NCBI GenBank assembly: GCA_001789635.1
Contig: MGAF01000032.1
Span: 1-43,810, forward strand
Origin: Candidatus Roizmanbacteria bacterium RIFCSPLOWO2_01_FULL_35_13
GTDB taxonomy: Bacteria; Patescibacteriota; Microgenomatia; UBA1406; GWC2-37-13
DNA: 43,810 nt
Reading direction: 5' to 3'
Every line of letters begins with the position of its first letter. The stretch's first letter is position 1. The position numbers and the translations under genes were made by a program. Shown piece by piece: positions 31,612 through 39,529 of the stretch. Below the pieces are notes generated by a model that ran no database searches, was not told where the DNA came from, and saw only the letters and a list, made by a program, of their open reading frames with translations.

Positions 31612-31729
31612 AATACGGATTACGGATCTTATTCGGATTTTACGGATTTATCCGCATATCCGCCCGCCTGCAACGCTATGCGTAGCATTGCGGGCAGGTA
31701 GATCCGCATAGAATCCGTAGATCAGTATT
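31612..31729. repeat. Intergenic hairpin element built on the word ACGGAT, copy A
   Basis: The left arm is a run of CGGAT words, the right arm holds the reversed words ATCCGC and ATCCGT, and the centre is a GC-rich stem CCTGCAACGCTA/TAGCATTGCGGG with G-T wobbles. The outer ends are AATAC and GTATT. Copy B at 33718-33852 has the same right half and centre and about 16 extra bases in the left arm. Each copy ends a few bases before a translation start region. Confidence 0.75.
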
Positions 31730-38451: not shown

Positions 38452-38464
38452 TATAATAGATCAA

Positions 38465-38540
38465 TTGCGCAATAAGCGATCAATTTGTTATTCTGGTCCC
38501 TCGATTATCTAAACTCGGGATTATAACTTGTCCAGAATCT
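38465..38540. repeat. Left half of the GTTGCGAAATAA element (truncated copy)
   Basis: Positions 38465-38540 match the left half of the element at 39354-39529 (both contain CAATTTGT, ATTCTGGTCCCTC and CTCGGGATTATAACTTGTCC). The copy ends abruptly at CCAGAATCT, 30 nt before the split tRNA gene. Confidence 0.7.
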
Positions 38541-38569
38541 ATGATAAAATAGAAGCGGTACTTATAATA

Positions 38570-38754
38570 CGGGGATTAGCTCAGATGGCTAGAGCGCAGC
38601 GTTCGGCCTGCCCGCCATTTGCCAACGGGACGTAGTTCATCGGTAGAACGCTCGGTTCGGGACCGAGAGGTAGTGGGTTCAATTCCCACCGTCCCGACAA
38701 AGGCTTTGGCAGGCGGGGACGCTGAAGCCGCCAGTTCAAGTCTGGCATCCCCGA
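38570..38754 (+). tRNA. Interrupted tRNA-Pro-like gene (two exons around a 111-nt insert)
   Basis: Exon 1 is 38570 to about 38606 and exon 2 about 38718 to 38754. Joined, they give a perfect cloverleaf: acceptor CGGGGAT/ATCCCCG, D-arm GCTC/GAGC, anticodon stem CAGCG/CGCTG, variable AAGCC, T-arm GCCAG TTCAAGT CTGGC, discriminator A. The insert lies in the anticodon loop. Joining TTCGG with GA gives loop TTCGGGA, anticodon CGG (Pro); the other 7-nt joints give CGG or GGG, both Pro. The insert contains a complete second tRNA (38626-38697) held by a 12-bp stem, CCCGCC-ATT-TGCCAA with TTGGCAGGCGGG (38611-38625 with 38706-38717). TATAAT at 38563-38568 is immediately upstream. Confidence 0.75.
38626..38697 (+). 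tRNA. tRNA-Pro (CGG), nested inside the anticodon loop of another tRNA gene
   Basis: Complete cloverleaf: acceptor CGGGACG/CGTCCCG, D-arm GTTC/GAAC, anticodon stem CTCGG/CCGAG with loop TTCGGGA (anticodon CGG), variable AGGTA, T-arm GTGGG TTCAATT CCCAC, discriminator A. No encoded CCA. It starts directly after the 5' strand of the stem that closes the insert. Confidence 0.92.
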
Positions 38755-39353: not shown

Positions 39354-39529
39354 GTTGCGAAATAAAGAATCAATTTGTCATTCTGGTCCCTCAATTATCT
39401 AAACTCGGGATTATAACTTGTCCAGAATCTACAAATTGATGAACAACGATTCTGGATGCGCCAAGTACAGTCTTGCACCTGGCTTACCAGAATGACTTAA
39501 ACATACACGATATTTTCTTATTTCGCAAC
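39354..39529. mobile_element. MITE with 12-bp perfect terminal inverted repeat
   Basis: GTTGCGAAATAA (39354-39365) and TTATTTCGCAAC (39518-39529) are exact complements. Inside are nested pairs: CAATTTGT/ACAAATTG and TCATTCTGGT/ACCAGAATGA. No ORF and no clear target duplication. Its left half is repeated at 38465-38540. Confidence 0.75.

Follow-up and report, generated by a model that had tools for sequence, protein, structure and literature searches.

How can a complete tRNA gene come to lie within the anticodon loop of another gene of its own tRNA type, and which of the two is functional? This question is raised by a tRNA-Pro locus in the window analysed here, the whole stretch of 43,810 nucleotides from a Candidatus Roizmanbacteria genome. 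The window is part of contig C32 of a 1.45 Mb assembly that is 89.7% complete. The features that bear on the question are the following.

31663..31698 (G000:C32), minus strand: empty 36-nt hairpin of the same family as the insert, found by the hairpin family search.
38452..38457, plus strand: TATAAT box in 'CAGTGATATAAT', common to the tRNA-Pro locus of the relatives compared (L056, L058, L069).
38570..38606, plus strand: 5' half of the outer tRNA-Pro(CGG), called by ARAGORN on the joined halves; 100% identical to the uninterrupted tRNA-Pro of G038 and G043 over the 38-nt 5' part.
38607..38717, plus strand: inserted tRNA-bearing hairpin element of 111 nt, member of a pattern family of 78.
38607..38616, plus strand: left arm CCTGCCCGCC, common to empty hairpins and other nests.
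38626..38697, plus strand: complete inner tRNA-Pro(CGG), found by Rfam and ARAGORN and probably the working copy; G024 has a stand-alone gene of 95% identity.
38708..38717, plus strand: right arm GGCAGGCGGG in the window sequence, as in the arm pattern of the class.
38718..38754, plus strand: 3' half of the outer tRNA-Pro(CGG), called by ARAGORN on the joined halves, with discriminator A at 38754.

An earlier note had described a flawless outer cloverleaf, a flawless inner tRNA and two alternative clamps between them, and all three were recovered. Once the halves are joined, the four stems of the outer tRNA are perfect (acceptor CGGGGAT/ATCCCCG, D GCTC/GAGC, anticodon CAGCG/CGCTG, T GCCAG/CTGGC) and its anticodon loop reads TTCGGGA; the junction can slide by 2 nt (GG) with the joined loop unaltered. 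The inner tRNA scores 68.1 bits against Rfam RF00005, and ARAGORN with default settings reports the inner tRNA only. One clamp pairs 38606-38612 with 38708-38714, and the other is formed by CCCGCC/GGCGGG and TGCCAA/TTGGCA. The 188-nt RNA of the nest is predicted to fold at -91.3 kcal/mol (z = -5.7) into the outer cloverleaf, an extended anticodon stem or clamp, and the inner cloverleaf. The TATAAT box is probably a promoter element of the outer gene that the inner gene has inherited. Another hairpin repeat (TTCTGGTCCCTCGATTATC...GTCCAGAATCTA) occurs in two near-identical copies in the window (38484-38541 and 39373-39430), one of which separates the likely promoter from the nested tRNA.

The pattern CCTGCCCGC-N82-112-GGCAGGCGGG, whose exact arms miss older nests, was searched in 374 genomes of the class and 380 of the phylum (overlapping samples) and in named contigs, duplicates being merged. 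It matched in 36 of the 374 and 24 of the 380 genomes, and a reversed control pattern gave no match in the class scan. At least 78 distinct elements, covering 27 anticodons, hold a tRNA in the merged samples and named contigs. Among the matches listed for named genomes, the same arrangement occurs in records of Kerfeldbacteria, Berkelbacteria, Moraniibacteriota, Doudnabacteria, Parcubacteria and Amesbacteria, so that the class is assigned to Patescibacteria; the remaining matches listed for named genomes are mostly without a tRNA.

All 78 tRNA-bearing elements lie inside a tRNA gene of the same type or its remnant. In 45 cases excision of the element restores a callable outer tRNA with no trimming; the 33 uncallable outers were judged same-type remnants by eye, which is a reading and not a statistical test. 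Inner and outer tRNAs share the strand in 45/45 callable cases and the amino acid in 43/43 full outer calls. Their anticodons agree in 41/45, for which the random expectation is about 1e-63; two further calls are truncated and two pairs disagree in anticodon (Ile GAT inside AAT, Arg TCG inside TCT). The elements are 102-130 nt long (median 110), with a 5' flank of 12-36 nt (median 18) before the cargo tRNA. The 45 insertions are found in the anticodon loop (36), the D arm (6), at position 10 (2) and in the T loop (1). The insert of the window is thus a member of a recurrent class of 102-130 nt, a REP-like hairpin tipped by a complete tRNA gene. Such elements sit in the anticodon or D loop, rarely the T loop, of a tRNA gene that matches their cargo in amino acid and, with few exceptions, in anticodon. 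Equal arms flank a same-type nested tRNA at 77 other places and the reversed control found none, and the window nest is therefore not a product of chance.

Inserts of 132-162 nt gave no match in 351 genomes, and the capture of random DNA fragments at hairpin tips was rejected on this ground. Nine matches were found for inserts of 57-87 nt (339 genomes), most of them a hairpin carried at the tip of another. Seven tRNA-sized elements carry other DNA and stand at non-tRNA sites, and none of the 78 tRNA-bearing hairpins was found at a neutral site. A viral source was considered and rejected, as the 24 matches in viral contigs include none with a tRNA. The isotypes are unevenly represented: Thr, Arg and Val dominate the 78 nests, and Lys, Asn, Asp, His, Gln, Phe, Tyr, Ser and Met are missing from them.

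The insert ends (CCTGCCCGC...GGCAGGCGGG) are themselves members of a REP-like hairpin family, a short imperfect palindrome with conserved ends, which is present in 23 of 57 relatives. Empty copies of 33-48 nt are common in Patescibacteria; the genome of the window has 13, mostly one identical 36-mer. Such empty hairpins occur within dead tRNA genes (L005, L006, L223, L224, L232) and, with identical ends, also outside tRNAs. On the question whether insertion occurs in hairpin loops, the flanks of empty copies show a modest excess of complementarity (p = 2e-4), but only 4 of 37 individually exceed the 95% control. No target duplication was found at the junctions, where the outer tRNAs rejoin exactly with zero trimming. 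Like REP/BIME hairpins and MITEs, these repeats are short, imperfectly palindromic, noncoding, free of target duplication and mutually nested. They differ in that the window element has a complete tRNA gene at its hairpin tip, in that the tRNA-bearing form is confined to same-type tRNA genes, and in that no RAYT link was found. G000 carries eight genes for Y1-type transposases of RAYT size (L273-L280, 222-245 aa). None of the eight has this hairpin within 1.5 kb, and RAYT as the mover of the element is unsupported by gene location. We do not claim membership of the hairpin family in the strict RAYT-linked REP class.

A DNA search of 96 relatives found the outer tRNA-Pro uninterrupted in other, related genera (e.g. 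L057, L058) and the inner one as a stand-alone gene of at most 95% identity (G024). In two distant genomes, the insert ends flank a tRNA-Thr(CGT) inside a tRNA-Thr (L052, L053). Within the genus, the inner tRNA type of the window is itself the outer gene in G005, where its 3' half has decayed around another tRNA-Pro; in G003, the 3' half alone remains of that outer gene. A third relative (L060, G093:C45) has three tRNA-Pro(TGG) nested successively, with a different arm family (CACTTAAAAACC...). The genome of the window contains further nests for Thr-GGT (C53), Cys-GCA (C3), Leu-CAA (C11), Leu-CAG (C38) and Leu-TAG (C58), some with unrelated arms (CCCAGAAGTA..., CCCATAAAAAAATT...). As read from their sequences, the loci of this genome and of its genus appear to show repeated tRNA replacement. 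Separately, four clustered tRNAs (Phe, Val-TAC, Leu-GAG, Leu-CAG) at G000 C17:1327-1956 have anticodons duplicated elsewhere in the genome; this may be a contaminant contig or a mobile element.

Which copy works can be judged from their state of preservation. A third or more of the outer tRNAs are decayed, and since they range from perfect to destroyed, it is the inner tRNA that is kept. The latter is always well formed, with a mean of 7.00/7 acceptor pairs against 6.78/7 for the outer one. A census of the assembly found the inner gene to be the sole intact Pro-CGG. Since there is no other intact Pro-CGG gene and no RtcB ligase in the 89.7% complete assembly, no intron family (group I/II catalytic core included) matched in Rfam at the gathering threshold, and outer copies decay, the inner tRNA-Pro(CGG) at 38626-38697 is likely the functional gene. 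The 5' acceptor strand differs between inner and outer tRNA in 45/45 cases, even where the rest is near-identical (L202, L114). Such differences would fit a selective pressure on the inner tRNA to fold correctly when both copies share one transcript. With these acceptor differences and an identity of only 65-92% between inner and outer copies, tandem duplication of the resident tRNA was discarded as a source. Intact outers make up 36/52 of those cut in the anticodon loop versus 6/21 of those cut in the D arm (p = 0.002), the classes of the decayed cases being approximate. D-arm outers may do harm and disappear sooner; alternatively, certain anticodon-loop outers may still have a function.

We consider it quite probable that the insert is a hairpin element with a tRNA as cargo, and that this tRNA replaces the interrupted one by way of the resident promoter. 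Maturation of tRNAs by RNase P and 3' enzymes is the established bacterial pathway. Insertion would inactivate the resident tRNA; transcribed along with it from its promoter, the cargo tRNA would make good the loss at once. RNase P and 3' processing would free the inner tRNA from the transcript, and the outer halves would turn into leader and trailer, then decay. Only cargo of the same type and direction would be viable: the loss of a single-copy tRNA would be tolerated only with an insert that supplies this tRNA in the direction of the promoter, which would explain the rule on both type and orientation.

The earlier note had offered two readings, a tRNA-bearing element that invaded the anticodon loop and took the place of its host, and an intron giving two tRNAs. 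The first is strongly supported by the common arms, the lack of target duplication, the decayed outers, the uninterrupted outer tRNA of relatives and the repeated cases. The intact outer stems, which the note had ascribed to function or to very recent insertion, fit an insertion that was probably recent. Several points weigh against replacement. No transposase could be linked to the hairpins, and the more frequent intactness of anticodon-loop outers could mean some outer function. Selection alone would predict many tRNA hairpins at neutral sites, and 0/78 were seen; a targeting or homology step must therefore be added, and pure survivorship of random insertions fails on the same count. Candidates for this step are a targeted break, recombination via the outer halves, or rescue under selection. 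As a guess, insertion might follow a break or a single-stranded hairpin at the tRNA loop; a hairpin-specific transposase or a homing nuclease aimed at tRNAs might be responsible, and repair with a foreign tRNA may follow.

Replacement by a tRNA-bearing element resembles what integrative elements do at tRNA attachment sites, where insertion also occurs in a tRNA gene, function is rebuilt by element DNA and the resident promoter is used. However, the window insert shows no attachment-site duplication at the junctions checked and has no integrase, and it supplies a whole different tRNA whereas integrative elements rebuild one end of the gene.

A possible driver of replacement, compatible with the takeover proposed above, is homing by recombination: a nuclease, for instance of the single-domain GIY-YIG kind, would cut an uninterrupted tRNA X, and repair from the nested allele of a relative would follow. 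The outer halves would provide homology and the nested tRNA an immune cargo, in a natural 'home and rescue'. The same-type rule follows directly, and within one type, nests from different families agree in site, arm orientation and spacers (for example Ile-GAT in L091, L098 and L100; Leu-CAA in L074 and in L340 of the own genome). In four genomes of the family, 20 of 37 single-domain GIY-YIG genes have a tRNA gene within 150 bp, where 0.8 are expected (in G000, C58:8387-8599, C52:6118-6336, C55:11324-11527, C24:2175-2387 and C34:8864-9070; L350-L368). They often stand between a 10-20-nt tRNA 5' fragment and an intact tRNA beginning with the same bases, an arrangement from which they are likely tRNA-gene homing nucleases. 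SegB, a freestanding GIY-YIG enzyme of T-even phages, cuts within tRNA genes and adjoins tRNAs (PMC13096335), and would yield targeted tRNA replacement; it differs in that the window element encodes no protein, and its link to the nests is a lead. On the other side, no GIY-YIG or other nuclease gene lies in or adjoins the window nest, and the tRNAs linked to GIY-YIG genes belong mostly to the types Lys, Asn, Tyr, Gln and Ser, which are missing from the 78 nests. These nucleases as the inserting agent of the nests are a lead, and homing a possible but rather unlikely account of them.

Less likely still is an origin in place by two steps, in which tRNA X would first receive an empty hairpin, an insertion made tolerable by wobble or a second copy, and a tRNA X gene would then be captured at the hairpin tip and selected to restore function. 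The empty hairpins in dead tRNAs suit this account, as do other hairpins at hairpin tips and arm families that match resident hairpin families. However, such capture should also have left tRNAs in hairpins at neutral sites, where none were seen, and the captured piece is of tRNA size with short flanks.

The second reading of the earlier note, a self- or protein-spliced intron whose removal joins the ends so that one transcript gives two tRNA-Pro, is very improbable. It would account for the perfect outer cloverleaf, the clamp adjoining the anticodon stem, the stable nested fold and the better preservation of anticodon-loop outers. Against it stand the lack of an Rfam intron match and of RtcB, the many broken outers (anticodon-loop ones included), the same elements in D arms and one T loop, and arms that belong to a general hairpin family, whose empty copies outside tRNAs have identical ends. 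Structural RNA genes are also interrupted at anticodon loops or stem-loop tips by the group I introns of bacterial tRNAs and the rRNA insertion sequences of CPR bacteria (PMC11270868), but the window insert is far shorter, has no intron core and holds a tRNA, and its outer gene often decays. With archaeal tRNA introns and with permuted and split tRNAs, the locus shares halves that are apart in the DNA and a clamp near the anticodon stem; it differs in showing no sign of splicing and in that the inner gene is the conserved part. Finally, an assembly artefact or chance pairing, conceivable for one metagenome bin, has a negligible probability and is refuted by recurrence: the arrangement is present in dozens of independent genomes, named public records from several candidate phyla among them.

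Change of tRNA genes is usually ascribed to point mutation, anticodon switching and plain horizontal transfer. At the loci described here, nested insertion seems to have replaced an essential single-copy gene in place, and to have done so repeatedly, with the old copy left as a fossil around the new one. A search of open PubMed Central text brought up no account of one tRNA gene lying inside another with the same anticodon. Hairpin repeats and tRNA genes are of known kinds; the combination and the strict same-type rule are new to our knowledge. Their recurrence for 27 anticodons points to an undescribed bacterial mode of essential tRNA gene replacement, and because tRNA finders report the inner gene only, genome annotation misses the nests. 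These are a readable record of tRNA gene turnover and may explain patchy tRNA phylogenies in Patescibacteria. We tentatively propose, as a possibility that is less likely than not, that selfish hairpin cassettes are at work in Patescibacteria, each homing into one particular tRNA gene and bringing with it an immune replacement copy of that same tRNA. If this is true, a home-and-rescue drive, possibly a natural counterpart to engineered designs of that kind, would keep overwriting the tRNA set of these bacteria and would move tRNA genes between lineages.
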